NCBI GenBank assembly: GCA_013076295.1
Contig: RQOL01000024.1
Location: 930,001-994,000, forward strand
Direction: 5' to 3'
Length of the DNA stretch: 64,000 bases
Source of the DNA: Sanderia malayensis
Taxonomy: Eukaryota > Cnidaria > Scyphozoa > Semaeostomeae > Pelagiidae
Within the stretch, counting starts at the first letter, position 1. Each line of letters opens with the position of its first letter. Under the pieces are notes generated by a model. That model was not told where the DNA came from. It searched no databases and worked only from the letters and a program-made list of their open reading frames with translations. Both the position numbers and the translations under genes were made by a program. Positions 3,298 to 57,900 of the stretch are shown here, piece after piece.

Positions 3298-6200
3298 CTT
3301 CTGTCAATTATTCTCTTTACTCAACTTTTAATTAACCCAACCAACTCGATCTTGATAAGATTTCATTGAGAATCTGCAGTCTATAAAACGCAATGCATTT
3401 ACATCTCGAATTCTCTTTAACTCCTTCGTTTCTTGCTGTGTTATGAACTTGCTGCCGTGTCACAGATTTCAAGAAGACAATATCGTCTGTGATTCACCCA
3501 GGGATTCTTTCTCTCGAACTGTTTTCATCTGATTTATAATGCTCGACACCGCAATGGATGATCTATCTTCGTCCACCTCATCATTGGTCAACTATTCATC
3601 GATGTTTCGTCTTTATGCAACTATACCATCACCTACCTTCGCTCTTCATTTTTCAATATTTACCGATTCACCTGTGTATTGTATCAATATGTTCGGAGCG
3701 GTTAACGACGACACCTTGCACGCAGCAACAGAACCTCTTTTTGTCCAGCTTGACCGCGAAGCAGTTACTTCATTCAATTTTTTACATGAATTTCGCCTGG
3801 CTTTTACTTTGTAAACAGCATCATTAGGATCGTGTTGAGCAGCAAAAATTACCTTCTAGAGTCATTTTGGTCTTTACGTCTGCTTGTTTGTATTTGCTTA
3901 TATGACCACTGCCTTGTCAATCTACTTCTTAGACATGCACGAAGCAAGATTTGAAATCAAAACAAACCCAGAAACACTTTGATTTCATTCATGTTCTCCG
4001 CGTGGGACAAATTTTCTCATCGCAAACTTGACAATCTTCTGCTTCAACAGCTTCTTCGACCCTCAACTTTAAGTCATTCGAAGTGCATGTGCACTGGGCT
4101 ATTTATATCAGTTCGTGTTTCTGTCCACTCCCACGGGCGGAGATTGGTTCGCGGCGACTTTGTAACGGAAATCTGACAACTGTTCTGCCTACGTCGACAG
4201 AGCATAAACGCGGTGCTCTTGCTGCCATGGAGATTGCGCAGAAAAACACGTATGCTCTCGACGAACAGCTGAGGATGCGCAGCCGTATTCATTGTTTTCG
4301 TCTGCTTCTCAGTGCATCCTTTTGACTTTGACTAGCAGCTGGTGCTAAGCGCATACAAGCTGAAATTAATTGAACATTTCAAAGTTGCTCATGGTGTTGT
4401 TGTTAACGCAAAAAATACCCATTATGCTCTTTCTAGTGGAAAGTGATTGCTATTTCAAGAGAGCCAGAAAATACTACAATTAGTTGGGTCACGCTAAATA
4501 TAGCCGCAAGCGATGTGGACTGAATTGAACCACAGGGATTTGCTGAAAATGCTGGAAGAGATTCCATCTCTTCTGAGTGAAATGGATTTGGTCTTCATGA
4601 TTCCCATGCCTCAAAATGAATCCATTTATTTGACTAATTTCCTTTTGCATTTGTTTGACTTACTATACCGAAACATTGCGTCCTGTATACCGTAAGCCCC
4701 CACCACCGAATTTGCCCCCACTCGAATAAACCATCGAGCACAAGTATCATGGCATTGAAGTTGTGTTGTGAATTTATTGCAAATAGCAGCGACTTTAAAT
4801 AAAGGATTTTATTAGTTAGCTGTATACAGTGGCTTTCGCAAAGCTTGGTATTGAATATAAACAGCTAGAACTTCGAATGCAATGGATTTGCATTGCCCTA
4901 CAATTTTTGAGGTTCCTTTTCAACAAAGAGTTAATTCTCATCTTACATGATACCGAGGGAAATATATGCACATGAGCCTGAACACATTGACGACCACTCG
5001 AGTGAAATTTCTCAATGTGTCAAACATCTTGCGATCCCCCTTGACGCTGACTTGTTGTATATATGCCTTATGTTTTAGCCTCGATGCTCTCGTTAACTCG
5101 AACAAATTTCTCATTCCCCAAAGTGTTTGACAAACCGAGGTTCGACTCTGTACATCACTCACAGGGAAAGGCGTTGGATCGAAGCTCCACACTTTCTACG
5201 ATCTTCGTTACTTTCACAATGTGCAGCCTTTGGCAAGCTTCATTTTTATCAAACATTAATGACCATATTTGAGAATCTCAACCACCCACACGTGTTACAC
5301 TGGTAATTACGATTCGGATTAAATACTGAAATCCGTAGTAATTAGATATTTTCAATTCATTGAACGTCGAAACCCAAACCGACCAACTTTCAACCATCTC
5401 ATTCTCATCTATGTGAGCTGTGTGACCTTAAACGCGAATGCGCCACCGCAGTGGTCATCCTGCAGGCATCAATTCCTCATGAAGTATCGTATAGGAGTAG
5501 ACTGCGCGGTAGACACCAACGCAATAACATCTTTCATTATTTAATCCTCGAAATTAATTTGGCCCATTGCAATGATCCTCTTTGAAATCGCATTACATTG
5601 TTGTAAATTGTCGATTAACACACTCTGCTTGATTTGTTAACCTCAACATTATTACTTTACCAAGCTTGGTCTGCAAACGAGTATTTCATCGTCACGATTA
5701 CCAACCTTGTAATTGATGATTAATTTCTATTTATTTGTCTCTTGCGCCGTCGATTGATACTCGAAGCTCAAGCCACGAGAGAGCGTTTTGGTTAAGCTAC
5801 TTGTTACACGAGGAAATGCTTCACAGTAATTTGTCTTGCAATAGCAAATTAAGGGGTTGCAACGAGATTTTGCAATGGGTTTTGCACGCAGCAATGATCT
5901 TTGCAACGTGTTGCGATCGAGGCTGGGCAATTGGCTTTCCGCCATTTTTGACGCGCATGCGCAAGCGAGTAGATGCTCGTATATATGACTGACTTCCTTT
6001 GCACCACATTTGGGATTGAAATGGACTTTGCAAGATTAGATGTTGCACACAGTGCAATGGTCAAACAGTTGCCTGCAATCGTTGCGAAGAGTAGAAGCTT
6101 CGAGTCTCCTTCCCAATAGGAGGTTCAATACTCCACTGCTGAATTTAATAACAAGCATTAAGCAGGTGTCGCAGGACAATTGATCCCCAGTCGAGGAGAC

Positions 6201-37774: not shown

Positions 37775-38029
37775 TGTTGAATGCTTTAGAATTTCATTGT
37801 CAGTAGATTGGCGGCCATTTTTTTGTTATGCTTTAAAATCAAAAGCGAGGCTGATTGACCATTTGGCAGTGTTTCAGAAATCTGATTCGAGGCTGGATAT
37901 TTTCCCAACCATTTACCCGCGTTGTAAATCGCGGGAAATCTGAAGAAGAAGAATGGGGAAAAGTCAGTTGCCCCCGCCCAGCGTCGCGTCAGGTCAGGTC
38001 ACGAAGAAGTTTGAAGCAGTCGAAGAAGG
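37775..38029. promoter_or_regulatory. likely RABL3 promoter, possibly bidirectional
   Basis: A GC-richer island (about 37950-38010, CCCCCGCCCAGCGTCGCGTC) stands out from AT-rich flanks directly upstream of the RABL3 ATG. No TATA box is apparent. An exon-like plus-strand stretch follows at 37953-38072. Confidence 0.4.
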
Positions 38030-38072
38030 ATGGTAGAAGTACAAGAAGAAAGCAAAATTACATCAAGAAACA
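37953..38072 (+). pseudogene. exon-like stretch with an in-frame amber codon
   Basis: ATG at 37953 opens MGKSQLPPPSVASGQVTKK, then FEAVEEGW, then a TAG, then KYKKKAKLHQETSK up to a good donor (AAG|GTAAAT). Composition on both sides of the TAG looks coding. A second ATG in another frame (38030, MVEVQEESKITSRNIQ) also reaches the donor. I do not recognise the protein and found no convincing downstream exon. It could be a broken first exon, a non-coding first exon, or a sequencing error. Confidence 0.3.
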
Positions 38073-38089
38073 TCCAAGGTAAATCTTAT

Positions 38090-38980
38090 CTGTATCTCTA
38101 TTAAAACGTTCAATATTAGTTTATAAAGATTTTTATGTCTGGATGATAGTGTTATTTTTTATAAACGAGAAGATTTTTCTGCCATGAATTGAAGGAACAA
38201 ATTTGCTTCGAGAAAACTTGACTCCAACACTTAGGCCATATCTAGGCCTATATAGAGACCGAAGAAATGTTTCATTTTCGTCATTACGTTTCCAGTTTAT
38301 TACGAGTTCCTTGCCTTAATTAACATTCAACACACTCCTTAAAAATCAGGCTAATTAATAGGAGCTGAGATTCTATTTTTTAGTGCAGAATTTTATTGAG
38401 AGCCTTCGCCATTTTGTCAGCAGGTGTTTGTTTGAATTATTTCGTTTGCTTCGTAGACCAAGACAACGAAGTTTTGCACACATCGCAACATATCACGAAG
38501 GAAAGAAGAATAATATTCACAAGATCATATTCATGGCGGATAAAAACATTTTATAAAATAATTTCTATTTCTCTTCGCATTTTGTACAACTTTATTCATT
38601 ATAAAAACTTAGGTTGTGTTTTTCATGGGTAAAATAGAATAAGACTAGAATTAGACAAGTAAAGAGTAATCGTAAAGTAATAAATTAACAGTTAGGATAT
38701 TCAAGGAATTCTCTTCTAGTGACAGGATAATCAAGTTAGGCTAATTTAAGGAAGCGCGCATTTATTTTAGGATAGAAGCGCTGTAAAATAGCGTAACAAT
38801 GTAGTTAGATTAAAAGGAGCTCGGGGTGGGGTAGATGTGGGTGGTTTAAACTGGGGGGTAGGGCTGCTGCAATTGGGAGTAAACCCCTGCAGCCCATGGC
38901 CGTAGGGAACCCGTGTCCTTACGGTCGCTGGTTTGTCCCGGACGCTCTGTTCCGTAAAAGGTGGGAGGAAGTACAACAAA
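38090..38980. other. spacer, no gene recognised
   Basis: Short frames only. A G-rich block at 38815-38900 precedes the inverted repeat that starts near 38985. Confidence 0.4.
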
Positions 38981-38984
38981 TTTT

Positions 38985-41445
38985 TAAAATATCCCGACCT
39001 TGTCCGCCATGCCAAGTTCTGTCCTGCTTCTTGCTGTTGTCTACCTTGCTTTGCCATATGATGTCATGTGCCCATGGTCCCCTATTTGACTCAACCAAGT
39101 TGCCAAGTCCTTCAAAGACAGCTCTATTCCCAATAGATGAGAAAATGACGTGCCTATACGGTGTTACTCAAACACAATGCCTCATTGTCACAATCTATAT
39201 CCAAGCTCATTAGTCCGAAATAATACGCAACAAAACAACTGGCTGTGGGGCATGTTACAAATCAACAAGACCGTGAGATATAACTGTCAAAGTCAGAAAA
39301 CGTAACCTGTTCACATATTAGCCAAACGTTCCTAGTGCCTCAAGTTTTGAAAGAAGTAATGCAACCTCCTTTTGGTGCGATGAATGCGAGGCAAACAATT
39401 CATGAGAGCATTAAGCATTGCCCCCGCGAAGGCCATAGCGCCATTGCATTTACTGCACCCCCCAGGCCGTATCATCATTATTTGATCAGACGAATGGCTG
39501 AACATCACAATACAAAAGCGAGGACCATATATATTTTAGCCCATTTTAGTACGAAATAATCCACGTCAAATCTGGTGAGTTTTCTTTGTGCAAAATTAGA
39601 ACCAAAATAATATAACGTTATGACAAAAAAATTCCTTAATGATATTATAAATCATAAATTTTAAAATAAAACAAAAGAAATACCCCCATACTTCCTTTAT
39701 TTTACTTTAAATGACTAAAAATTATAGTTCTAACTTTCTAACAAAAAAACAAGAAGTTATTAGCTACCATGACAATACCAACACTATTTCTACGTCCACC
39801 ACTACTGAAACAAATACTAAATACTTTGACATTGATCACCTGATGATGTCTGTGAGGAATAAGGCAACCTAAAGCAACTACATGGTTTACTCGTGCGTGA
39901 TATGAATGCCCATGAATGCTACTGTTAAAAATGGCAATGCTGTTGGCAACAATTACGTCACTGAGATTATCCAATCATAAACAACACTACTTGAAGCAAA
40001 AGCATCAAAGTCAGTACAAGCCAGATTAGTATTTGGAAAGAAGCACCACTACAAGTTTGTCTGAGAGTCAAAGCACTGCACCATAACGATGTAGACAATA
40101 ATACTCCAAATACTGCACTACAACAACGTAGACAATAGGACTCCAAATACTGCACTACAACGATGTAGATAATAGGACTCCAAATACTGCACTACAACGA
40201 TGTAGACAACAGGACTCCAAATACTGCACTACAACGATGTAGACAACAGGACTCCAAATACTGCACAGGACTCAAATACTGCACTAGAGCGATGTAGACA
40301 ACAGGAGTCCAAATACTGCACTAAAACGACGTAGACAATGGAACCCCAAATACTGCACTACATGACCTAGACAATAGCACTCAAATACTGCACCAAAACG
40401 ATGTAGACAATAATACTCCAAATACTACACTACAACAACGTAGACAATAGGACTCCAAATACTGCACAGCAACGATGTAGCCAATGGAACTCCATGTACT
40501 GCACAACAATGACATAGAGAATAGGACCTGGTTGCCGAAAAGAATGCAACAATGCAAAGATAATAGAAACTCTATTTCTCTACTCTAATCAGCTAAAACA
40601 ATTGTTACAAAGGTCTTCTACGTATAACAACTGCAATCAATACTAAATCACTGATTACTATTTCTTCTATAACTGTTCTCAGTTCTATAACAACAAAGAC
40701 TTCTACTATTGTAGTATACTCCAATGGTTAGTTTAGCAACCAAAATGCTGACAATTGATAAGACTATAACTGAGCATAGCTCACTAATTATCCAGCTATT
40801 TATAACCTCTACCTTTTAACACACTTTCTCTCTCCTCTTGTTAAAACTAGCAATTAATGAAAATCAAAAAATAATATATGATAAACTAAATCAAAAATGA
40901 TATTCTACTAAAGTTTATAACTTAAAAAATTCTAGTATTGCACAAAGAGATTCATTTGAATTGGTGGATTGCAGCCTAATGGGAAGCCCGGGGTATAAAG
41001 GATTTGGGGTACAAGCTTTTGCGTAAATGATGTCAGAGCAGACCGATATCAAATTCAGCGACCCAGGCTTCAACTACGATGACGCGTACAATGCTTAATA
41101 CATCTCCTAGTTTTAGATGCGAACAGATCACAGTTCTCGTTCTCCTCGAGAAATACTCCACAAAGATGAAAATAAGTAACAGCTACAAGCCTTTTCATCC
41201 CAGTCCTTAGATTGTTAGAAGCTTGGATATTCATGTGACATGAGAACATTATGAAAGAGCAAGATTAATATAGACACGAACATTTTCTCACCATAAGAAT
41301 AGAGCCGCAACATGACAACAAGGTTGAGCCAGAATCAGAGACCATGAGCCATGAACACCATACAACGCAGCAAGGTAGTCCAACAGCAATCCACAGGACC
41401 AAAACTTGGCACGGCGGACAAGGCCGGGTGGCGTACATTCACTAA
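38985..41445. repeat. diverged large inverted repeat (~225-bp arms) around a minisatellite
   Basis: The left arm (38985-39210; CCGACCTTGTCCGCCATGCCAAGTTC, GTCTACCTTGCTTTGCC, GGCTCTATT/AGCTCTATTCC, GAGAAAATG, ATATCCAAGCTC) matches the reverse complement of 41215-41445 over most of its length, with roughly 30 percent mismatches. The 2-kb interior has no recognisable coding frame but contains the 36-bp minisatellite. This could be the relic of a foldback element. Confidence 0.55.
40075..40530. repeat. ~36-bp minisatellite, about 12 units
   Basis: Unit of the type CCAAATACTGCACTACAACGATGTAGACAATAGGACT, with substitutions and some shortened units. Located inside the 38985-41445 inverted structure. 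Confidence 0.9.
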
Positions 41446-44415
41446 ATCTACAAGAAAAACATTACAAAATTATTAACAGCATAAAATAAAACTAAAATTA
41501 CAATAATCATCAAAGTCACAAGCATGCAAAACTAAATTGAAATTAAATTCAGGAAAAAAGCACTTTAGGGGCATGTAACCTAATGGACGACTTAAAAATA
41601 GGAAACTATTGGTTGCAAATGAGAAACTAAAGGCCCCTTGTTAAAAACCCACATCTAACCTTTAGATGGATATGTACTTTCTTACTCTAGAAATTAAAGG
41701 TCCCTTTTTGGATCTTTTTTGAGTTGGTGAGCTAGGGGTTTTGACTTTCATTTAAACTATTTCTTTGCATGCTTGTGACAAATGACAATACTTAAAATAT
41801 CAACCCTTAGATAAATATACTATTACTTTAGCCTTAATGGTTGAAACTGTCTTTTCCAAATAGATCTGTACACTTTGGATGATTGTGAATAATATTTAAC
41901 GGGGGAAATTATTCTATTATTCTTCAGTGACTAGCGAGGAACATTTAAAGAAGGGAATATCTTTCAAAGACAGTTTCAAAATTGGCCATTGCAGAAGCAT
42001 GAACCTCTATGAATGAGAATTTAAATTTACACAAAATGTATTGAATATTCTCCTCTGGCAAGTTCTCTAAGAGTTCCTGATTGACATTTTGTCACATGTT
42101 TTAAAGTACTTCCAAAGTGCACATAATTCTGCATCAATTCTTTTGCTTCTGCCATCAGTGGATTAGAAATACCTCCAGATATTTTACACAAATTTACAAC
42201 TGTTTAAATAAAAATATCTGCAATGACCAATTGAGCCCCCTCTCAAGGGATGATAGCAAAGTCGGTGCCAAAATGTTTCAGATAAATGCTTGCAGAAAAT
42301 TTATTTCAGAATTTTTCAATATTGCAGTGAACCAGATAAATAGTTTGTAACCACATTCAAATATTTATTTAACTCAGGGAAGAGTTTAAAACAATATAAA
42401 AAGAACTAATGATAAAGAAAAACAGAAGAATAAAATGAAAGATATGAAAAAAGAAAGGAAAGAAGAAAGTAAAAAGACTTAAAAGTAGAAAAAAGAAACA
42501 GAAGGAAGGAAATACCAAAGAAAATGTAAAGAAATCAATGGAAAAAAATATAAGTATGAAAAAGAAATGAAAGAATAAAATTAGGAATAGAGAAGGGGAA
42601 GAGGAAAGAAGAAATGATAATATATTATAAATTGAGAGAAAATCAAGAGAATTGACCTGTATCTGAAACATTGTGGCACAGACAATCCATTAATTATAAA
42701 GTAGAAAGAACAAAAGTTCAATTTTCCTCCTTTACTCATCCATCAAATGTTCTAATTATCTTCATTCTATATTCTTCATCCATAAGATCTCCAATAACTA
42801 AAAAAAGAAAATAATTACCTGTAGGCTTGTTCTAGCGAATAGGAAGCATATTCTATTATAATTAAAACGTAACCAGAAGAAAATGTAAAGAAATCAAGAA
42901 AAAAAGAACATAAGTATGAAAAAGAAAATGAAAGAAAGAAATAAGGAATAAAGAAGGGGAAAAGGAAAGAAGAAATGCTAATATATTAAAATTTAAAGAA
43001 AAATAAAGAGAATGGACCTGTATCTGAAACATTGTGGTGGCACAGACAATCCACTAATTACCAAGTTGAACGAATGAAATTTTCAGATTTTTTCTTTACT
43101 CGTGTATTGCATCAAATGTTCCAATTATCTTTATTCTATATTCTTCATCCATCATCCATAAGATCTCCAATAACTAAAAAAAGAAATTAATTACCTATTG
43201 ACTTGTTCTAGCGAATAGGAAGCATGTTCTATTACAATTAAAACATAATCAGAGCTGATCAAATGTGCTGTCCGTAAGGTGGACAACTGCAAGCTCTAAT
43301 CAGGCTCCCCTCCCAGAAAATAGAGTCATCTTTTTTTTCTTACTTTTTGTTGTTGGTTGCCTTCACAAACCACTGCTAAGACGCCAGGAATGCTGTTTTG
43401 GAGGTTTTTGCCAAGTTTCAATTAATTTAAACCAGTGTAAGGTACCGTTTTAGTACAATATAAAAAAACGCAGCCCTGAGAAAACACGTAGGCCAATTTT
43501 TTCTCACATAAGCTCCAAAAACTTTTGTAATGAATTGGATGACAAGAAAGACGGGGGTAAAACTTGCATTGAAATTGCCAAAAAATAAGAAACAAACCAT
43601 GCCACAATTGCAAACTTATATTACTTTATTAAATGTTCAGATAATCACTAATTACTATTATACTATATGATTATAGTTTGCAATGATATAAATAACAAAT
43701 AAAGAATGCTACTACATTCAAACACAGCTTGCAACAATTTCAATGTTGCACCCCCTATTTCCCCTATCATTCAATTCAAAACGAAATTTTCTTGTCGCTG
43801 TGAGAAAAAAATGCTCACCAATTTTGGAGATTGCTGCGTGTGTAGAGGAAAGTTGAAGTCGGAAGCACCCAGTGGTTTTTCTCTAACACTCTATCACCGA
43901 TATTTAATTGGCTCGGAGAGCCAGAAAAGAGAGAAATTTATGCCCCCAGAAAATGGAGAATGATGTTTCGAAAGTATTTGCCAAATTAAAAGTAATTCGG
44001 TGTAAGTGACGTTTTGGTGCATTTTAAAGCCGGGCATATTGGCCGCTGGCTTTAGCATATCACCCCTTGAGGCAGCCTAGTAGTTGAACAACAAGAAGAA
44101 CGCAACGGAGAATTGAGAACAAAATCAGGGTAAAGTAATTCCAAATTGTAGGAGAAAATAAAACAGAAACCAAAAAAGAGAAAAAAAATAACACATTCAA
44201 AATTCCTTGGTCCATTCCAAGGTGTACGTGACTTGCGTACGCAAATTATATTATCCTTAAATTTTCATCCAGTTTTTTTTTTTGGATTTTTATTCTACAA
44301 TTTCGGTGTTATTTTATTTATGTATTTATGTCATTGCCTATTTCAAGCGTCTCGTATACTTTTGAGAAAATTAAACTTTGTTGTCCCTACAAAATTCTCA
44401 AAAAAATCAATAAAA
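41446..44415. other. spacer, repeats only
   Basis: Includes the purine-rich tandem duplication at 42522-43255. No gene recognised on either strand. ATTTTATTTATG near 44312 could provide a minus-strand AATAAA for the downstream MGCC gene. Confidence 0.45.
42522..43255. repeat. tandem duplication, ~359-bp unit x 2
   Basis: Copies start at 42522 and 42881 with AAATGTAAAGAAATCAA. Shared blocks include GGACCTGTATCTGAAACATTGTGG, ATAAGATCTCCAATAACTAAAAAAAGAAA and TTGTTCTAGCGAATAGGAAGC. They differ by substitutions and small indels. The first third is a purine-rich strand (GAAAGAAGAAA). Confidence 0.85.
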
Positions 44416-47400
44416 TTATTTAGCTGCTCTGTCCTCAGCACAGCTTTCTAATACAAAATCCCATACTGGCTGTACGGAATCCTCCTCTTCAAAATTATCT
44501 TCACTGAGTGTCAATCTTGCCATCACCGTTTCAGGTTCGACAAATGGCTGTACGGTCTCGCCTTCTTCAATGGTGCTATTACTAAGCGAAAGCCTTGCTA
44601 TCACCGTTTCAGGTTGGATAAATGTTTCTTCATCTTCGAAATAATCATTTGCATTATGACTTTCACAAGTGCAAGTGGATACATCTGGTGCTTCCATGAC
44701 ATGCGATTCCAAATAGTCAGAGGAAGCACCATCTGCATCACTGCCATCGTGTTCCACTTCAACTTCATTCATTGCTTCAACTTCGTCGCAAACAGCATTT
44801 AGAATGCCTTCGAGGAAACTGCTGCAGGCCACCACAATAAACCGATCCTTTTCAACCTCCAATGTGTTCTGTGGGGGTTGGCAAATGTTGGATTCCGTCT
44901 TGGAATCTTCAAGACGGTTCATTGATTCTGGCTGGTCTTCAATGTTGCTTCCATTGTCAAGGAGACTTTGATCTGATGTATCAATCGGGTTGACGGAGTC
45001 CACGTTGGCATTTCCAACGACTGGTACCACTTTGTCTTCCAAGCTTTCTATTGGCACAACTTGTTCCAAGCCTGTAACACTTGACAAGGCAATGTCATCC
45101 TCTTTTGAGTCATCAAAAGATTTTCCTTCGCTGGTTTGGTCGTTCGCAATTTCAGCCTCGTTTCCGCACTGATTTGAATCTTGAACAGCAAGAGCACCAT
45201 TGTCAAGGCAAGGCGAATCGCTCTCTGTACAGATTCCTGACACATCTTCTGAATGTGTCTGTATGGTCTCGTCTTCTTCAATGTTGTCATTATTAACCAC
45301 AAGTCTTGCTATCACCGTTTCAGGCTCGACAAATAGCTGTACGGTCTCGTCTTCTTCAATGTTGTAATCACTGGTGGAGAATCTTGCTATTATTATCTCA
45401 GGTTCCCCAAGAGATTCCGTATCTTCAAAATTATAATATGGATTACAGCTTTCACAAGTGCAAGTGGATGCATCTGGTGCTTCCATCACATACGATCCCA
45501 AATAGTCAGAGGAAGCACCATCTGCATCACTGCCATCTTGTTCCACTTCAACTTCATTCATTGCTTCAACTTCCTCGCAAACAGCATTTACAATGCCTTC
45601 AAGGAAACTGCTGCAGACTTCCACAATAACAGGATCCTTTTCAGCCTCCAACGTGTTCTGTTGTGGTTGGCAAATGTTGGATTCCGTCTTGGAATCTTTG
45701 AGATGGTTTAGTGATTCAGGCTGGTCATCAATGTTGCTTCCATTGTCAAGGAGACTTTGATCTGATGTATCAATGCGACTGATGGAACCCACGTCGGCAT
45801 TTGCAACAACTGGTACCACTTTGTCTTCCAATCTTTTCACCTGCGCAATTTGTGCCGAAATTGGGCAATTTGATACACAAGTGCGAGTGCATGATGCATC
45901 TGGTGCATCCTTGACGGACGATCCCAAATAGTCAGAGGAAGCACCATCTGCATCGCTGCCATCTTGTTCCGCTTCAACTTCATTTGTTGCTTCAACTTCC
46001 TCGCAAACAGCATTTACAATGCCTTCAAGGAAACTGCTGGAGACTTCCACGATAACAGGATCCTTTTCAGCCTCCAACGTGTTCTGTTGTGGTTTGCAAA
46101 TGTCGGATTCCGCCTTGGAATCTGGGAAATGATTCAGTGATTCAGGCTGGTCATCAATGTTGCTTCCATTGTCAAGGAGACTTTGATCTGATGTATCAAT
46201 GCGACTGATGGAACCCACGTCGGCATTTGCAACAACTGGTACCACTTTGTCTTCCAATCTTTTCACCTGCGCAATTTGTGCCGAAATTGGGCAATTTGAT
46301 ACACAAGTGCGAGTGCATGATGCATCTGGTGCATCCTTGACGGACGATCCCAAATAGTCAGAGGAAGCACCATCTGCATCGCTGCCATCTTGTTCCGCTT
46401 CAACTTCATTTGTTGCTTCAACTTCCTCGCAAACAGCATTTAGAATGCCTTCGAGGAAACTGCTGCAGACTTCCACAATAACAGGATCCTTTGCAGCCTG
46501 CAATGTGTTCTGTTGTGGTTGGCAAATGTTGGATTCCGTCTTGGAATCTTTGAGATGGCTTAGTGATTCAGGCTGGTCCACATCGGCATTTCCATCAACT
46601 GGTACCACTGTGTCTTCCAAACTTTCTATTGGCACAGCCTGTGCCAAGCCTGTAACATCTGACAAGGCAATGTCATCATCTTTTGAGTCACCAAAAGACT
46701 TTTCTTTGGTGGTTTGCTCGTTCGCAACTTGAGCCTCATTTCCGCACTGACCTGTATCTTGCACAGCAAGAGCACCATTGTCAAGGCAAGGCGAATCGCT
46801 CTCTGTACAGATTTCTGCCACATCTTCCGAATGTACGGTCTCGTCTTCCTCAATGTTGTAATCACTGATGGAAAATCTTGCTATTACGATTTCAGGTTCC
46901 GCATCTTCAAAATGATCATTTGGATTGCGACTTTCACAAGTCGAAGTGGATGCATCAGGTGCATCAATGACATACGAATCTCCGGAATGTATCATAACAA
47001 ACTCGCCTTCTTTATTGTTTTCAAAATTGGCCCGAATTCTTGCTATCACCTCTGCTTCTGCAACTCGCTGCGAAACAGCATTGAGGATGTCTTCAAGAAC
47101 ACTGCTGCATACTTGAATGGAGTGGTCCTTGACTTCAATGGAGTCTTCCTTGATTTCAGTGGAATCAGCACTTTCTGAAAGATCTGCCTCATATCCGTCT
47201 TGTCTGGCATCTTCAAAAGCAGCCTTCTGTGGTTCTTCAAATGCTGCTTTACTGGGAATGCCATAAACTTGTCCTGGCAAACCCAGGACGCCGTCGTTTG
47301 GTAGGTGTTGCAGAGATTGCGAGGATTGACGTGGCAGTACCCTTAGGACTCGAAGGTTTTTGTCAACAGTGTCGGAGCTGCTACTATCAACTGGTTGCTG

Positions 47401-48290
47401 AAATGTAATGGAATATTTGAGTTAATTGAACACAGATTTGTAGATTGGATACTTAATGATGCATTTATATTTTTATTCCATGCATACCTGACGTCGCTTC
47501 CTGGTTCTTCGTTTACGTTTGGTCAAAGTAGGTACCTGGCCTCTTGTTCCACTTGAATCTGCAGTATATAAGGCATATAGTTTTAGGCATATTCAATATT
47601 CACTAACATCTAAGAAAACATTAAAGAAACGTCATGCTCACCTCGCCTATATAAGTGAGAAAGATTATCACGCAAATCTACACCATCGGAGTTTCTACAA
47701 CCTGCAAGTGAAACAAAGTCAATATAGATCCTCACGTGGTATAGTTAATGTGACGTCAAATATTTATGCTAATGTGACGTCACTTTTATTCTTCAGCTTT
47801 GATATAAAGTATTGAAAATGGCGCCCTCCTTTGTAATTATATTAATATTAACTGCATTTTTGAAAACATAATCTTCATTTGAAAGCGCGTAGTATTTTAA
47901 TTATATATCCTTCTCTACAAAAATATATCGATATCATATATCATATCGATCCATATTGAGGAAATGTTTTCAATGAGATAACAACTGGCATAACATTTCT
48001 CGTGTCTGGCCTGCGCTCACAAAATTTGAGTCGCTGCCAACCTGTAATTTTATTTTTGCCATAAACAACTTTCACCTTCAATTATGCTCTATTTATGTAT
48101 ATTGTGTTTCGCTTAAACTTGTTTTAATATTTTTCTAATCTGCCTCATAAAATTTAGATGTGATAAAATTGCCAGTTTGTTACATATAAAATATCAGTTG
48201 ATTTATTTTTTTAGCTAATGGAAATTACATATATAATTGACATTGCTTACCAACTTGTCTTTTTGTCTTTTTCCAGGAACAGCAACCCAT
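44416..48290 (-). CDS. acidic internal-repeat protein with MGCC N-terminus; candidate multivalent PKA-anchoring protein
   Basis: Not a family I recognise. Exons 48251-48290, 47642-47701, 47488-47558, 44416-47397; phases join, giving about 1050 residues. It begins MGCCSWKKTKRQVG: Gly2 followed by Cys3-Cys4 and basic residues, as in N-myristoylated, palmitoylated proteins. A basic stretch TKRKRRTRKRRQ ends exon 3. The long last exon is very acidic and built from repeats. Five copies of an amphipathic helix occur, such as SSFLEGILNAVCEEVEA, at residues about 153-173, 365-386, 507-528, 649-670 and 912-933. Five copies of EPETVIARLSxSxxxIEE occur (about 224, 722, 748, 985, 1011). A spacer around LEDKVVPVVANADVGS also recurs. 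EGILNAVCEEVEA aligns with the RII-binding helix of AKAP-Lbc/Ht31 (SRIVDAVIEQVKA) at the hydrophobic positions. No enzyme domain is seen. The anchoring function is inference; the gene structure is well supported. Confidence 0.75.
45640..46490 (-). repeat. two near-identical 426-bp (142-residue) coding repeats
   Basis: AGGATCC landmarks at 45631, 46057 and 46483 are spaced exactly 426 bp apart, and the sequence between them is almost identical. The unit keeps frame (142 codons). It contains one candidate RII helix, the ASCTRTCVSNCPISAQIAQV segment and the DTSDQSLLDNGSNIDDQPES segment. More diverged partial copies lie on either side. Confidence 0.9.
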
Positions 48291-49385
48291 TTTACCAACA
48301 ATCCTTGTGTTTTAAATAAACAAAATATTTCTCTTCGATGAACGTTTCTCTTTTCAGGGAGTTAGAACTTGAATTCTGAGATTGATAACTATCTCCGCAC
48401 TATTTTGTTTCTGCTGGTTGATCTGACGTAACATTCATTAATTTCAGACATCGAATGCACTGTGATTGGCTACCAGCCGACCGCGCAGGGATTGAAATCG
48501 CCTGGTGACTAGTATCCAGTCTGCAATTTAGCTGCTCTTTTGCCATGAAAGTTGACAACTGACTTGTTCATCTGACATCAGGAGAAGTGAATTTTTAAAG
48601 TTTAAACAATGCCATGTCTAGCAATGGCCAATGGTCAATTGAGAACCAAGCTTCTGGTTCTTGGACTGGAGGCCACAATTTCCAAAAATGTCTAGATTTT
48701 TTTCGATATTCCTGTTTATCATAAATTACTTCACAGAACAAAACTCGTCCGGTCTCTCTAGCGTCAATACTTGAAACGGCAACCATGAATCTAACGATCT
48801 TAATATTAGCAAATAAAAAATATACAGTCACTGATGATCAAGATTCTAGTTCTTGCACTGGAGGCCACAATTTCCTAAACTGTCCAAATTTATTGCGATA
48901 TACCTGTTCATCATGGGTTGATACACAGAATAAAAATCATTCGCTCTCCCTAGCGTAAATAATTGGAACGGAAGCCCTGAATCTAGCGACCTTAACATTA
49001 CCTGATGCGAAAATCTACAGTCACCTGACAACCAAGCTTCTAGGTATCGGACTAGAGAAGATTGTACCCAGCTTTAGCTGATTTGTTCGATGCTCCACCG
49101 TGTACATCATCTCTTCTAATCAAACCGGACAAAAAAAGCGGTAGTACAAATTCAATGTAACTCCAATTCTAGAAACCCCTGATATTGATAGTATAGGTCT
49201 GCTTCGCCCTCTAGTGTATAAGGATAATATACACTAGAGTGCGAACCAGGCTCAGCGCGGTGAAGCAGTTGGGACGCCATCTTCTTGGAGGCTTATTTGA
49301 GAATTTCGCGCTCTGAAGCTTTATGATTTAAACAAAAATTACAAGGATATTATTATTGCTCAACCTCAAATAAAGATAGAAACCT
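48291..49385. other. upstream region of the MGCC gene, repeats
   Basis: Probable promoter just upstream of 48290. The 48644-49029 repeats and a palindromic CTCTAGTGTATA...TATACACTAGAG (49211-49242) follow. No gene recognised. Confidence 0.45.
48644..49029. repeat. two diverged tandem copies of a ~193-bp unit
   Basis: Both copies contain TTCT(G/A)GTTCTTG-ACTGGAGGCCACAATTTCC and a TCTCNCTAGCGT-AATA-TTG-AACGG block. A third partial start (ACCAAGCTTCTAGGTATCGGACT) is at 49030. Confidence 0.75.
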
Positions 49386-49550
49386 TCATAATATTATAGT
49401 TAGTTCAAAATACTGAAGTTTTCTTGCTGGGTCGAGTGTATTAATACCATGTTGCAAAAGGCGGATTTGCATTTTATGGACCACGCCCAAATAGGGTAAT
49501 TTAGATATTAATCGATCGGCAACGACCTCCTGAGTATGAATCTGCAATAC
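49386..49550 (-). CDS. unassigned possible coding exon
   Basis: After an acceptor-like TTGTATTGCAG the minus strand reads IHTQEVVADRLISKLPYLGV, then VHKMQIRLLQHGINTLDPAR, then KLQYFELTIIL and stop. The composition looks protein-like. No partner exon or known family was identified; candidate frames at 50089-50219 do not join it in phase. It could be the last exon of an unrecognised gene, or a fossil. Confidence 0.25.
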   Translation of the reverse strand, partial: VLQIHTQEVVADRLISKLPYLGVVHKMQIRLLQHGINTLDPARKLQYFELTIIL

Positions 49551-51925
49551 AATTTGTGGAAGACTCCCGCATTGAAAATATTTTAGCATTATTTATACTT
49601 GCGCCCACCTTTAGTTGCAGTCGATCAGCGCTTTTTTTCGTGTTGGCCTGATGGCCTTTGACAAAAAGGACATAACTTTAGAATGCGGGAAATCAAATCC
49701 AATACGGTAGGAATGCATATATTTGGGAATGCGCCGAATCAGAGGATACACTTATTTTACTTTGTTTTTTTGTGTTCGTTTTCCGCCCCCGCGCAAACTC
49801 TCTGGAAATTCATTGAAACCATGAAAACAATGCAGAAAAAAGAAATTTGAAATGCATTCCCGGATGCATGCATTTCTACTTACAAAGACCTACATATTTG
49901 ACATTATTTTCCAAGTTCTCATGGAGTAGAAACGTATTAAAATGTTAGAAAGTTGCAAAAATTGTGTCCTGAAGTTGTGGAAAAATGAAAGCCCACAACA
50001 ACATGAAGTATGACAATGAAATAAAAAAAATTTCAAACAATTAATTCTCAAATCTTTGAAAAATGTATCACTTACCCCACAGATGCAAAAAGTTTTTAAA
50101 AGCTCCATATATTTCCTGAGATATTCGTATTTTGTCACAGTCGACTCCGGTGCTGAATGGCATGTCGAATCCCAGGATGAATAAGATTCTGAATGGTGTC
50201 CAAGACTTTCTTGAAATTTTCATTCCACCTGGTGAGTTGACAGTTAATACTCTCTAGTATCGGCTTCGCAAGTCACTGCTTATGAAATTTCGCATTTGTT
50301 ATAGCTAAGTTTGACTTGACGTACAACATAGTCACGGGTGGGCAACTCCTTATTTGTCGTACCTCCTCGACTCGACTCAACCCCTTCGCAAACAATCACA
50401 TGCACCAAAGTAAGGGTACTGCTTATGACTATCCCTCCCACCTCCGAAGAACCCAAATCGTGATTCCCTAAAATCGTGCATATCTAAAAATGCCAAAAAT
50501 AAATAAGCCCCCAGAGGGGCTAATTCGTGGATTTACGGTATGCATTTACAATGAAGTAGCCAGGCCAATCCATAACAATCCACATTAATCCATGCAGAGT
50601 ATAATAATTTCATTTTGCAACAAAACTATATAATTTGGGAAAACATTACGCTTACAAGAACGTTTTACGCGGATTATCGTATCATTGAACACATAACTAA
50701 TAACATGCGTATCAATTCCCGTACAGTTTAATTGAGCAGGAAATTTATTGACACTGTTTCATACAATACACAGTCTGTTCGAGCGAGTGCTCTCCGACGA
50801 GCAAGATGAATCCAGTAAAAATCATGCATATAAAATCATGAAATCTTGCAATTACACATGTAAATAAAATTTATAATCTCGCTTTATTTGAAATAATATA
50901 ATTTCGGATTATCAAAAATCGATTAAAACTCAAATTAAAGAAATTGCTTATTCCGATATACTAAATTTGATGTACTGTAACATTTGCTTAATGTGGAAAT
51001 AAAAGGAATTTCGAGGAAGGGATTATCGAGATATAGCAACCAGTTTGTTATGACAGCAAGCAAACAAATTCTAAGGTGGTTAATATGATAGCAGCATTGG
51101 CCGATAGCACAAAAGGGTAAGAAATAGTGGGTAAATAGGGAATGCCAATGTTCCTAGTTACGGTTTATACCAACATATTGTTTGCATAAATCATCTAAAT
51201 CTGCTTTAACATACGCAAGATAAAATCAGCCCACCCCAATCTAAAAAGAAACTTCCCTAACCCCCTGACACCGTTTACTCCCTCCCATTCTAAGCCAATC
51301 TCCGGCGTCCCAAATCGACCATTATCATTTCAAATTCGTCAAAAGTTCAAATAAGCATAGCCTATACTGTGGTAGCTAGAACAACGCTGTGTGTGTTCAT
51401 AAATTGAAAATCAAAATCAAAAACACTAGTTTTTATCTATTAAGAACGGGGCAAAAAGACCCTCGGGTAAAACACAAAACAAAAAGAAGGCTGAAGTAGC
51501 TAAGTAGGTGGGTTTTCAGAGCCCCCATATCCCCGCTTCCACAACTTTCCATATCAGAAAATCTTAGTGGAAATCAAAACATGGTCACTTCCAAAACGGG
51601 TTCCATGTTATTGTTCCGTGGCTTCACCAGGGTGGGGGTGGGGGGAATCAAATTTTGTTTATGAATTCGATTGGAAAACTAGCAGTGTCGAAACGACATG
51701 CAAAATTAATTGCGCGAAAGTGCAAAATACTTCCACAGGACAATTGTCAGATGAGAATGTTCTCGACACGAGACAAATAAAAAAACCCTACGATTTGAAA
51801 CATATTCCTGTTTCGCTGCTGATCTATTTGCTAGAAAAACTGAAAAATAAAATCAAATAATAGCTTAATAAGATGACACCGTCTGGTTGGATAACAAGCT
51901 GATGCCATGACAGAGCGAAACCGGC
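49551..51925. other. spacer between the MGCC gene and the Rh gene
   Basis: It contains a GAATAAGCCCCC-family fragment ending GATTTACGGTA (50430-50541). No other gene is supported. Confidence 0.4.
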
Positions 51926-54900
51926 CTAGACAGCTTGGCTGATATCTCTGATGTGGTTTTCCTCGTTTCCTTTGAGGCTCTGTAATTCATGATCGTGCTG
52001 GAAATCATCGTGATGGTCCACGTGGTGATGGTTGTGTTCGTGATCATCGTCGTCTTCATCGCCGTGGTCGTGGTTATCGTCATGGTCGACGTGGTGTTCG
52101 GGTCCAATGTCGTCCATTTCTTCGAAACTGTCCTGTTGTGAAAAGAGACGAAAACTCGGAATCAAAAAACGATCGCTTCGTTGATCAAAGAGACATGATG
52201 CTACGTTGAAATGTGTTAATGTAAAATGAAATTTGTTACACGACGGGGAATCGCTGTTTTGGTGATTCTACTGTGAAGTAAAAGTTCGCTTGCTTACCTC
52301 GAAGTCATTGAAGTCGTTGAATGCGTCGTGTTCGTCCACAGGATCAAAAAAACTCGTCCGAACAACCAGGCCTAGAATAAATGCACCCGTGATAGTGTTG
52401 AATATAATAGGCACAAAACAAGTGGATGGAGTAAAAGAGTCTTAAGCAATGGGCAAAGAATGGGGTGAAATAAAGCTAAGAGTAAAAATGATGAGCTGGC
52501 TGGGAGTAAAGAAGGGAAGAGCGTTGGGAAAGAAGTTAGAAAAAAGTCAAGCAAAGGAAGCTGAAGGGAAAAGAGTACAGAAATGAAAGGTTTTAAAACC
52601 AAGAATAAGAAACAAAAAGTAAGAAGCAAATTGTGCAGGGTAAAAATAAATAACAAAGTCAGAAGTAAAGAATAAGGAGCCTTAGAGGAATACTGTAAGA
52701 AGTAAATAGTCAAGGGACTCTGGGTAATGAAAGTAAAAGCTGAACTAATGCCTAAGAGGTGAAAAGAGTCACACAGATAAAATGAAAAAGCAAGGAGTGT
52801 ATTGTGTCATTGGCTGACGTGCTTACCCGTGAGTAACCCTCCAAATATACCAAATGCAATACTAAGTACTAAACCAACAACTTGATAAGCAGCCTGTTCT
52901 CCTCCGCTTCTATTCAGCCCCGCAGGAATGTCGGGTTCGAATTGAATCAAATCAAAGTAAGCAGTGCTGTTTTCAGTCGGTGCACGGGCTGGAAACACTT
53001 TGTAGAGGCTGAAAATGAACGAAGGGGCAGCGCGTAAACTATTTCAATATGTTCACATGCAACAGTAATAGTGATCTGCTACGTATATAAAGCTATGCAA
53101 ACAGTACAACCTTGGAGTACAGACCGGCTTGATACTACAATAGCGAATGCGAGATATTGCTTGCAAACGAGGCTTGTGACGTTTTCGGTTGAATACGGTG
53201 CCTTAGTTCTTATATAAATCTTACAGAAGTTTAAGCTCTCCACATTTGCACTATAATGTCTTTATACATGAATGAAAACATGGGACAGTAATAGCCTCGT
53301 TTTCAATCAAGAGCCTCGTATTCACGAAGAAAATAACAGGAACAACCCATGCATACCTCGACTTATACGTACTGTAATTCGCCATAGCGGTTGCGACGAT
53401 GCAAGCGATGGCTCCGATTAGCCCTGGAAAACCGTGCGTTGCAAGCACGCCTCTGGTGTCGTAGACCTTGAAGCGCATCTCGAGTTTCACCTGGAAAAAA
53501 GTCAAACAATTGGTGTGAGAAGTCAAGACACTGGAACATCTGATATCCACGAGATCAGGTGCTGAATAGAGTGAGAGGAGAAGAAAAAGCAAGTTCTCAT
53601 GTGTCAACTAATCGTCAACTGTGGCGTCATGGCTGGGAAAAGTAGCTTTTCAGGAACCAGAGCTATACCACACCCAACACACAAACGGCAAGAAAGTTCG
53701 GCAAGGCAAAACTTCAAACACTTCAGATGGTCTTAAAATGACGATAAAAGTAAATGGGGACAATTGGGAAATTTCCCACCACCCGTCTGGCCATCACGTA
53801 GTAGCAACACAGGACAATAGATTTTAAGTCCATTAATGCCAATGTGGAGGATATCGAACTTGAAAAATTACAGAAATTGCTGACTGTTATGATATATTCA
53901 AAGTTGTGGTCGGGCGGCGAAGAGCTTCAATATTTGCCAGTTGCATATGCTGAGCTTAAATTTTGCGGATTTCATGGGTTCGAACTGTGAAGATTTTTGA
54001 CTGTCGACGCTAGAGCCTGAACTCGTTACATGAAATCTCAAATTCATAATTCGCTGCGTAGGGACCTACCCTCTCTAGTAAACCACCCTCTCTAATAAAC
54101 CACCCTTTCTAGTAAACCACCCTCTCTAGTAAACCACCCTCTCTAGCAAACCACCATCTCTTGTAAACCACATTCTCTAGCAAACCACCTTCTCTAGTAA
54201 ACCACCCTCTCTAGTAAACCACCCTCTCTAGCAAACCACCATCTCTTGTAAACCACCTTCTCTAGTAAACCACCCTCTCTAGTAAACCACCCTCTCTAGT
54301 AAACCACTCTCTCTAGTAAACCACCACCTCTTGTAAACCACCTTGTCTAGTAAACCACTCTCTCTAGTAAACCATTCTCTCTAGTAAACCACCCTCTCTA
54401 GTAAACCACCCCCTCTAGTAAACCACTCTCTCCAGTAAACCACCCTCTCTAGTAAACCACCCTCTCTAGTAAACTACTCTCTCTAGTAAACCACCCTCTC
54501 TAGTAAACCACTCTCTCTAGTAAATCACCCTTTCTAGAAAACCACTCTCTCTAGTAAATCACCCTTTTAGAAAACAACAACAGCAACAACAACAACAAGA
54601 AACGCGGCACAGAGACTCAGTGCAACGAGTCCAGGTTGAGCCCAATAACAGAACCCCCTGGTACGCTGATATTCTACATTTCTTTTCAAGGGAAACCACT
54701 GTGTTTTACGGGGGTATTAAGGCAACAGCGACGTACTCACCAATATATACCTAAATCCAATGACGCTGACAAGCGATCCAACTATACCGATGAGTATTGC
54801 GCCCCATGGCTGCACAAAAAACTGCGCCACGCCACCAACTGCGATGCCTCCAGCCAGTGTGGAATTCTGAATGTGCGACTGAAACGAATGGAAATGCATA

Positions 54901-57900
54901 AAGGTACATGGAGGAAATTTTCAATTGACGTATTGTAAATTATTAATACAGCGCTACGATGCAGGGCAATCAATTGGTTCTCTTGAGACATCACGGGCAG
55001 TTGCGTGTGGTGAAATGTGACGGTATATCGAAAGGGGTAGCTAATACAGCGTACTGGGGGTTGTCAAATAAGCCCCCGGAAAGTTACTTGAAAAAAACAA
55101 ACATTTTTATTGGGATTTTTATTGAAGATATTCATCCAAGCTTGCTGCTATTTGCTTCATTGTCTTGACAGTTGGACTTAATGCCCTTGTAAATGATTAT
55201 CAGAATGGAGGCTTATTCGAAGGGGGGTTATTTGAAGGGGAGGGTTCATTTGAGGGGGGCTATTCGAGAGGGAGTGCTTATTCGAGAGGGAGTGCTTATT
55301 CGAGGGGGAGGGCTTATTCGAGGGGGGTTATTCGAGGACACGCGGTATGAGCCATACAAGTAGCGATAAGGACAGTTCATTCGACTTGGGGGTTCAACTA
55401 GAGTAAAACACAAGAACACATAGATCAATTACCATGCTTAGTCTTGACTCCGAGCTGGACAAAACAGAGAATGCAAATGTTGCGACACAGCTTGCAGCCA
55501 GCGCGTAGTACGTTGTCAAAATCGCACGATTGTATATGACACCTTCGCTATTGTAGGCATTCAGGCTGGGCCAATACACCCACAAAAATAGGGTACCTGG
55601 GGGAAAAATCAAAAAGACGAATGATCATAACTAAATGAGGCGTATTGTGTTTGATCATAGAGAAAATAGGCGCTCAGGGGCGTTTACATCAGACGAGGCC
55701 TGGGGCGTTTACTTGCACTAACTGTGAAGGTCGACTGGTGAATTTTATCCTTGCTGAGCGTGAGAAGAAGAAGGCTAGGCGTCTCAGAGTGACAATGATT
55801 ATGACGAAGATTCTTAGAGCTGATCATGTTGAGGGGAAAACGATGCCAATGAAAACTTACCTAGCAGTGCAAATGTGCCAGATTCATAAGATGCGCAGTA
55901 GAATCTCGCATTGCGCACAACTCTCCCTCGATACATCATTCTGGCGAGAGCGAGGCCAAAAAAGGCACCATACACGTGTACGAACATAGTTTTAGCATTA
56001 TCCGTAACGAAGAGCATCACGGTACAGATGCCCTCGTTAATAGAGTAGATGAAGGATTCGAGAAGTGCTATTGTGAGCAACTGCAATGAATTGGCTTTTC
56101 CCAGGATGGCTCCAAATGATACGAGCACAGATATGGCTGCGAAATCGGCAGAAAGCATTCTGAAAAGAACAATCATTGTAATGGGGGTTATTTAGTAGCT
56201 TAACCTTTCAGGGGGGAGGGTATCTGTTTCTTGCTTCTAAGCGCTACATTTCAAAAGGAACGGAAAGGAACATGGACATGACAGTTTTATTCGCTGTCCT
56301 GAACCAATTAGGGAGGAGAAATAATCTCTTTATGGTGTAGCATTCATAACATTTAAAGATGTGATGTTCAAGCTCGTAAAGAAATGAAAATTCTTATTGA
56401 CGTCTTGTCGGAAAATCTATAATCCCCGCACGAATTATCTAATGTAAGTAGTTGGAGAGTGGGGTGGGAGAGATGGTGGTTAAAAGCAACAAAGAATGAT
56501 ATATGATATAAGAAAGACAGAAATTGGAGAATGAAGAGAACAGATAAAGGAAGAAAAAACAATGAATGAAAAAAGCAAAAAGGAAGCAAAAGAAAAGAAA
56601 CGGAGGGAAGGGGAAGGGGAAGAGTAAAGAAAATAGGAAGAAAAAATAACAAAAGTAAAAACAGAGAGGTTATTAGGGTTATTAAACAAGGAACAAAATG
56701 AAGAAATATAAAATGAATTACTGAAAAGTAGAAGAGTGGGAGAGAGAAGGTTGGACAATAGATGAATTAGAATAAAATATCAATGCTAACAATGTCATCT
56801 ATCAATGTTAGAAATATCGTCTAACATTGATGAGATAAAAGGTGATTATTAAAAAGTAATCAATTTACAAAAAAGTCTTTAATTTCTTGAACCTGAACTT
56901 GATCTGTGAATTGTCTGATCTGATGAACGTCTGCCCACTTGGTCTAGTGGGCAGATATCCAGATTCCGATTACAATTTTCATGGTGGCGGGTGCAACAGT
57001 GTAAATCTCTAAAACTATTTACATCAAGATAAAGTACTGTGGCTAGGTCAGTCATTTCAATCTGGGCAGGTTATCTGTCCAAATTTTAATTGAAATACTC
57101 TCAGTGGTTGCTTAGCTGTGCAGTTTTAAATAGCCCCCAGAAAATTAAGAAACGCAATAGCAAATTGATATTATGATCTTTACTAGCCAAGCACATCTTA
57201 GCAAATAGCATTTATAGTTTTTTGGATATCACCCTTAGTTTAACAAACTAGGAATATAAACCCTGACTTTTGTTTTCTACTGGGTTTTCTTGCATCAAGA
57301 TTCAACTGCAAAAATTGATGCAAAAATATAAATATATTACCTCTCAGTTGTGAGCAAAACTTTGCTGTTCTTCATTTTGAAAAAACCTTGAAGTAGTGTA
57401 GCCCATTGGATGACAACGCCAACTATCAGTAAGGAGTGGACCAAGCTGCCTTGACTATATCTTTTAAGAAACGTCAACACCAAACCGAACCCAAGAAGCG
57501 TTGTCAGGTGAATATTTTGAAAACCTGCAAAGGAATTGGCACATTTTCCAATTATTGTTCGCTTATTAATGTTCGTTTCTGGAAAGGTGGGAGGGAGCAT
57601 GAAAGTTATTGCGTAAGATTTAATTTACGATTTGGGTTTTATTTTCAATGTTCAATTCGTCGTTTAAAAATTGAATATCGTTTTATCAGTACCGACCAGT
57701 ACGAAGTGTAAACAACAGGTATCTAGCATTGTTTTCGTACAAAAACAATATGCGATCACAAGGCGTGCTTGCAAGTTCTGTTGGAAACAATACAGCACAA
57801 ATCAGGTGATAATCAACTGCTCCATGAAAGGGCCTATCGAGTAATTCCCGGCTTTGACGCTATTTGTCATGGTTAAAGACGAGATCTTCTTAATTTGATC

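Follow-up and report, generated by a model that had tools for sequence, protein, structure and literature searches.

What could be the function of a protein that starts with Met-Gly-Cys-Cys (MGCC), carries a basic cluster next to this start and then runs on as a long acidic chain in which one amphipathic helix is repeated five times? The question is raised by a gene in a 64,000-nucleotide stretch of DNA (the window), positions 930001-994000 of contig C155 in the 184-Mb, 918-contig genome of the scyphozoan Sanderia malayensis. A sequence-only reading of this stretch had proposed a lipid-anchored scaffold that holds up to five dimers of the type II regulatory subunit (RII) of protein kinase A (PKA), that is, an A-kinase anchoring protein (AKAP) of an unfamiliar kind. 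We suggest, with a probability of about 0.4, that the product is tethered to the membrane and serves as a docking scaffold with several helices, possibly in the manner of an AKAP, the PKA regulatory (R) subunit being the first candidate partner. The hydrophobic face of the helix is retained in a strongly diverged relative; the AKAP-specific sequence tests discussed below weigh against this suggestion.

The gene lies on the minus strand (48290-44416 of the window), where 4 exons separated by introns of 549, 83 and 90 nt, all with GT...AG borders, join into 1050 codons and a stop in a frame that closes (Table 1). The spliced product matches the EukProt model P0003 (gene144-756_t) with 100% identity over 100% of its length; we take this model as a prediction and not as a transcript because the same source fuses the related gene on contig C675 to an upstream hydrolase and omits its MGCC exon (P0004). 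The strongest argument in these data for assigning the MGCC exon to the repeat gene comes from the genome itself: in its 184 Mb, the exon-1 pattern ATGGGNTGYTGYNNNNNNAARAARAC is matched exactly 6 times, each time at a locus of one gene family (three on C155 and one each on C453, C464 and C675), and the reversed pattern, used as a control, has 0 matches. The 40-nt exon recurs in the three C155 genes, at C464 and at C675, and its start at C453, in agreement with the spliced MGCC reading proposed from the sequence. The predicted acidic protein of some 1050 residues is likewise borne out. From the MGCCSWKKTKRQV start and the basic cluster (isoelectric point, pI, of the first 57 residues 11.6), the chain becomes acidic, with 21% Asp and Glu, a net charge of -155 and a pI of 4.05 for the whole protein. 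The five helix copies are all present, with 16-18 residues each. A 426-bp tandem DNA repeat covers copies 2-4, and DNA identity among the 90-codon stretches that surround copies 2-5 is 82-95%; the copies arose by tandem duplication, so the five helices are not five independent events. A second motif, with the consensus E-x-x-x-A-R-[LF]...E-E, is also present in five copies, and the chain ends in a C-terminal module (TCTCESxNxxDYFxDEE...).

Beyond the sequence-only reading, which saw a single gene, genome searches with P0002 and with the C675 protein place the window gene in a family within its own genome; new are two further genes on this contig that are almost identical to it, paralogues that have diverged, and the second repeated motif. 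The three C155 genes lie within 136 kb, and the window gene is the shortest, with 5 helices (P0003) against 7 in each of the other two (P0001 and P0002). The C464 relative starts with MGCCCWKKTTSKV and has 9 helix units spaced about 112 codons apart; exon 3 contains an in-frame stop and the frame of exon 4 is broken twice, so that it is either a pseudogene or an assembly error. At C675 there is an intact 473-aa gene, with the start MGCCVSKKTTEVV and the MGCC exon; over roughly 65-90 residues, its C-terminal module shares 47-52% identity with the modules of C155 and C464. C453 nearly duplicates C675, with errors in the frame, and is probably its other haplotype; frame-breaking differences occur in several neighbouring genes too, which suggests an unpurged haplotype together with residual assembly errors. 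Fragments of the family were found at C859, C478, C655 (two), C815 and C616 (four). Those on C616 (529642-548841) are about 6.3 kb apart and, in the part of the region that was inspected by eye, stand beside C-type lectin-like open frames; at C655:279449-280226, two partial C-terminal modules in opposite orientation, both with stops, lie within 1 kb.

Is there any sign that the helices are kept for a purpose? We compared 16 C155 units (the three first copies were left out) with the 9 C464 units at the face positions 1, 4, 5, 8, 9, 12, 13 and 16, counting A, V, L, I, M, F, C, W, Y and T as hydrophobic; both the positions and the set were chosen after the helices had been seen. At these eight positions, 99% of the 1152 cells are hydrophobic on both sides while identity is 40%, and at the other ten helix positions identity is 26%; the ratio of nonsynonymous to synonymous substitution rates (dN/dS) for the face is 0.15, with a saturated dS of 2.4. 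Since the units of one locus are not independent of each other, the whole set counts as a single comparison of two lineages. Because the face is retained at 40% identity in the diverged C464, it seems to matter. Furthermore, the face positions include those of the published AKAP consensus LxxxAxxIVxxAIxxA (PMC3682517). Cys occupies helix position 1 in 27 of the 28 units of the family, with Ser in the remaining one.

A tethered, mostly unstructured chain with several copies of a docking helix seems to be the simplest account of these parts. Under this hypothesis, the MGCC start and the basic cluster would hold the protein at the membrane, the chain would be largely unstructured, and each repeat would offer one amphipathic helix whose hydrophobic face, judging from its conservation, would dock into the groove of a partner. 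The dimerisation/docking (D/D) domain of a PKA R subunit is the likeliest putative partner, because of the hydrophobic spacing and the likeness to Ht31, the helix of AKAP-Lbc, and one chain could then gather several kinase holoenzymes at the membrane. Genes for RI-like and RII-like subunits are present in the same genome. The Pfam profile PF02197 matches at six places, 4 of them over the cut-off, which by eye are two first exons, one RI-like on C613 (where a later frame contains an RI-type inhibitor site) and one RII-like on C479, an intronless frame on C815 and an SPA17-like D/D on C655. The C815 frame, a second RII-like gene besides the C479 exon, has Ala in its inhibitor site GRRQAVAAESYDP (by eye). 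Anchoring of PKA by the helices is plausible but unproven. A bolder version, which we regard as doubtful, would see here a lipid-anchored AKAP family, so far found in a single animal genome, whose docking helix has multiplied in tandem to 5-7 per intact chain (9 in the broken copy) such that one molecule at the membrane gathers many PKA holoenzymes, the copy number setting the local kinase density, alongside the second, intronless RII-like gene.

The weight of the contrary evidence has to be considered at each level, beginning with the N-terminus. Gly2, Cys3 and Cys4 would make the right kind of start for lipidation. The PROSITE myristoylation pattern requires a small amino acid in position 6, and Trp6 in the C155 and C464 proteins breaks it, whereas the C675 protein (MGCCVSKK), with Ser at this position, fits. 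The proposal of a lipidated N-terminus is in keeping with MGCC and the basic cluster but not with this pattern; an N-terminal glycine is required for myristoylation yet does not predict it (PMC7373427). The proposal of five RII sites is weakened as well: there are five copies in the window gene but the number is not fixed in the family (5, 7, 7 and 9), and the intact paralogue C675 has no helix in the homologous stretch. The helical moment of the copies, 0.34-0.37, is only at the 88th-93rd percentile within the protein.

The comparisons with known anchoring helices, six of which (Ht31, AKAP5, AKAP7, AKAP10, Chd8 and smAKAP, from PDB chains or a published source) served as references, weigh in the same direction. 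In a 13-position profile made from five RII-binding helices, the known RII helices, left out in turn, score 10.7-13.0 and the RI-binding smAKAP 6.25. Helix copy 1 scores 2.45 and copies 3 and 4 score 2.04 each; copies 2 and 5, absent from the twelve best places listed for the window protein, reach at most 0.62. Shuffles of the whole protein have a mean maximum of 7.36; the top place in the protein is a non-helix stretch, VSNCPISAQIAQV (6.21). Of the C464 units, 4 of 9 exceed 5 in this register (5.76-8.7), and the linker VSNTNVDSVIELV, at 10.59, lies above every one of them, a value that may be due to chance and is comparable to those of the left-out anchoring helices. The profile fails to single out the helix copies. 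Ungapped BLOSUM62 scores against Ht31 are 25, 29, 32, 32 and 26 for copies 1-5, where shuffles average 26.9 and 3 of 60 reach 32 or more; against AKAP10, AKAP7, AKAP5, Chd8 and smAKAP, the copies do no better than shuffles (34 to 60 of 60 as high). The best AKAP5 match in the window protein (28; shuffle mean 24.8) lies over copy 3 in a different register, one that puts a small residue at position 5. In the Ht31 register, position 5 is bulky in the helix copies, whereas it is A or S in all six reference helices and Ala in the published consensus (PMC3682517); in addition, position 7 is Gly in copies 2-5 and position 13 is Cys or Ser.

Neither do motif searches lend support. The Pfam family RII_binding_1 (PF10522) has no match in the three full C155 proteins or in the unit peptides given to it; it recognises Ht31 at 28.4 bits (cut-off 18.8) and misses AKAP5, a true binder, so that this failure is weak evidence, and its lack of matches over the whole genome is uninformative given that there are none in control genomes either. 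The strict AKAP pattern matches at 0 places in P0001-P0003 and, among the six references, only in Ht31. A relaxed hydrophobic-spacing pattern, written after the units had been seen, matches exactly the five helix places in the window protein and 9 of 9 C464 units; but 192 of 2000 protein shuffles contain one or more matches to it as well, and it fits only 2 of the 6 known anchoring helices. A single helix of this pattern is unremarkable, and the conservation of the face in the diverged C464 goes beyond that. A degenerate relative on C815 has TVAKVLDAVVEQL upstream of a module-like stretch, with a BLOSUM score of 35 against Ht31, but it misses the relaxed pattern and its profile score drops from 6.8 to -1.0 once Ht31 leaves the profile. 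The profile, Pfam and pattern tests, then, do not separate the helices from chance, and the check by RII motif and profile that the sequence-only reading had recommended did not pick them. Of the Ht31-like spacing, what survives is that Ht31 is the top match among the six references, with the shuffles noted above equalling it. The likeness appears to be to Ht31 alone, and sequence cannot settle whether RII is bound.

Such a combination, a conserved face with failing AKAP-specific tests, would also be compatible with helices that docked into some other groove, that of a non-PKA D/D or DPY-30-like fold (of the SPA17 or ROPN1 type) or of another four-helix partner; the scaffold logic would be the same and the pathway would not be PKA. 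The SPA17-like D/D exon, with an open frame containing IQ-like motifs at the same locus (by eye), is compatible with this possibility. Nevertheless, no named partner has positive evidence in its favour and PKA R subunits are the best known takers of such helices, so we consider it unlikely.

Could the repeats instead be an expanding, minisatellite-like coding array under weak constraint, most copies having no specific partner, in a family that is young and decaying? The 426-bp tandem copies, the 5/7/7/9 copy numbers and the broken or partial relatives at C464, C859, C478, C655, C815 and C616 are compatible with this view, and so is the dN/dS between helix units, which is near 1 (1.13 within C155 and 0.98 within C464) and thus speaks against the docking scaffold as well; for the flanks the values are 0.52 (C155) and 1.0 (C464). 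Likewise, no homologue from another species was among the 5 proteins returned by the protein searches (P0001-P0005, all mapping to the genome of S. malayensis), although remote relatives can be missed by these searches, which required shared exact 5-residue words, had length limits and in one case scored only the 7989 candidates that shared most words. Within these searches the sequence is novel, as the sequence-only reading had surmised, and a PDB sequence search with two helix peptides and the C-terminal module gave no match. On the other side stand the 99% retention of the hydrophobic face between C155 and C464, the three C155 genes, whose long frames have stayed open, and a dN/dS of 0.37-0.64 in 5 of 6 comparisons of the N- and C-terminal blocks of the C155 genes (the sixth, with 11 differences, gives 1.24), which make this explanation improbable as well. 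The dS between C155 units is lower in the helix (0.064) than in the flanks (0.228), as though homogenisation, or a constraint on the DNA itself, acted on the helices.

Still less probable is that the helices associate with each other, inside a chain or across chains, and form membrane-attached clusters that involve no kinase; near-identical amphipathic helices with Cys at position 1 in almost every unit could do so but a net charge of -155 disfavours the close packing of many copies. Finally, the TRAPP (Bet3-like) identity implied by Pfam labels on the EukProt entries can be rejected with hardly any residual doubt: although PF04051 exceeds its 27-bit cut-off in all three C155 proteins (28.8, 35.9 and 32.9), the best stretch spans no more of the profile than positions 109/110-137 of 154, about 30 positions and not a complete Bet3 domain, and a single 141-residue unit stretch scores 11.9 bits (E 0.19), so that the label is an artefact of summing over repeats, as we take the Obc1_C match in P0001 (27.8 bits, cut-off 27) to be.

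Table 1. Coordinates of the gene, its parts and related loci (window positions unless a contig is named).
Feature	Position	Strand	Remarks
Exon 1	48251..48290	-	40 nt; MGCCSWKKTKRQV; start pattern matches 6 family loci exactly
Exon 2	47642..47701	-	60 nt; GT-AG borders; homologous exon at C464
Exon 3	47488..47558	-	71 nt; basic cluster KRKRRTRKRR
Exon 4	44416..47397	-	2982 nt with stop (993 codons + stop); all five helices
Helix copy 1	47056..47109	-	residues 154-171; CSSVLEDILNAVSQRVAE
Helix copy 2	46414..46467	-	residues 368-385
Helix copy 3	45988..46041	-	residues 510-527
Helix copy 4	45562..45615	-	residues 652-669
Helix copy 5	44773..44826	-	residues 915-932
Tandem DNA repeat	45453..46578	.	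426-bp unit, 2.7 copies, 94% matches
Second repeated motif, copy 1 of 5	46843..46893	-	EIVIARFSISDYNIEED
Second repeated motif, other four copies	45349-45399, 45271-45321, 44560-44610, 44482-44532	-	
C-terminal module	44419..44676	-	residues 965-1050; related to module of helix-less paralogue C675
C155 family gene	C155:897214-902594	+	1555 aa
C155 family gene (window gene)	C155:974416-978290	-	1050 aa
C155 family gene	C155:1028119-1033178	+	1452 aa
Intronless RII-like gene	C815:4438721-4439875		385 codons; Pfam D/D and cNMP (cyclic nucleotide monophosphate)-binding domains

Elsewhere in the window, a 456-aa open frame at 1933-3303 (minus strand) has BTB_2 and Ion_trans domains and is a Kv-type channel, which, like an MFS transporter and the PKA R subunits, suggests an animal source; low-complexity Leu/Phe/Ser-rich frames at 42369-42689, 52372-52806 and 56368-56766 (minus strand) are probably pyrimidine-rich simple sequence. 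There are no inverted repeats of at least 30 bases in window positions 38000-53000, and Rfam and tRNA scans of the window gave no matches.

How, then, would the docking scaffold compare with known systems? By its helix, it is closest to AKAP-Lbc: IVNAVCEEVEA of a window copy aligns with IVDAVIEQVKA of Ht31, the highest-scoring match among the reference helices, with Ile in Ht31 at position 13, where the window copies have Cys or Ser, and AASR upstream in Ht31 in place of FLEG or VLED. By its start, it recalls LAMTOR1, a scaffold with a lipidated MGCC start that has Ser at position 6 and is not known to have such repeats, and smAKAP, a protein of about 95 residues with an MGC start and one helix. 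smAKAP is too short for the length limits of the protein searches; the comparison is between helices, and its helix (PDB 5hvz) scores 18 against the window copies, where shuffles average 25.1 and 60 of 60 do at least as well. AKAP12 is myristoylated and disordered; to our knowledge, neither AKAP12 nor AKAP5 consists of tandem copies of one helix, and for these two the sequence comparison with the window protein covers the AKAP5 helix only. An RI-specific AKAP reportedly holds two PKA, and we know of no tandem copies of one helix in it or in BIG2, both of which resemble the window protein in having more than one site per chain and differ from it in having fewer. In the AKAP literature searched by title and the beginning of the abstract, no tandem-helix AKAP is described. 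There is precedent for a lipidated membrane AKAP, as proposed for the window protein, in smAKAP (C2orf88), which is myristoylated and palmitoylated and binds RI, and for membrane-associated RII-binding scaffolds in AKAP12/gravin and AKAP5/AKAP79 (PMC13025221). Should the helices not bind PKA, the window gene would still encode a probably membrane-tethered protein whose clearest conserved repeat trait is the greasy face of a helix. If they do, the family would provide a natural series in copy number (from zero in C675 through 5, 7 and 7 in C155 to 9 in the broken copy) for relating anchor valency to local cyclic AMP signalling, and its members would be natural high-valency anchors, to be set beside the three potential R-binding helices on the single chain of BIG2, the most among the AKAPs compared (PMC13025221).

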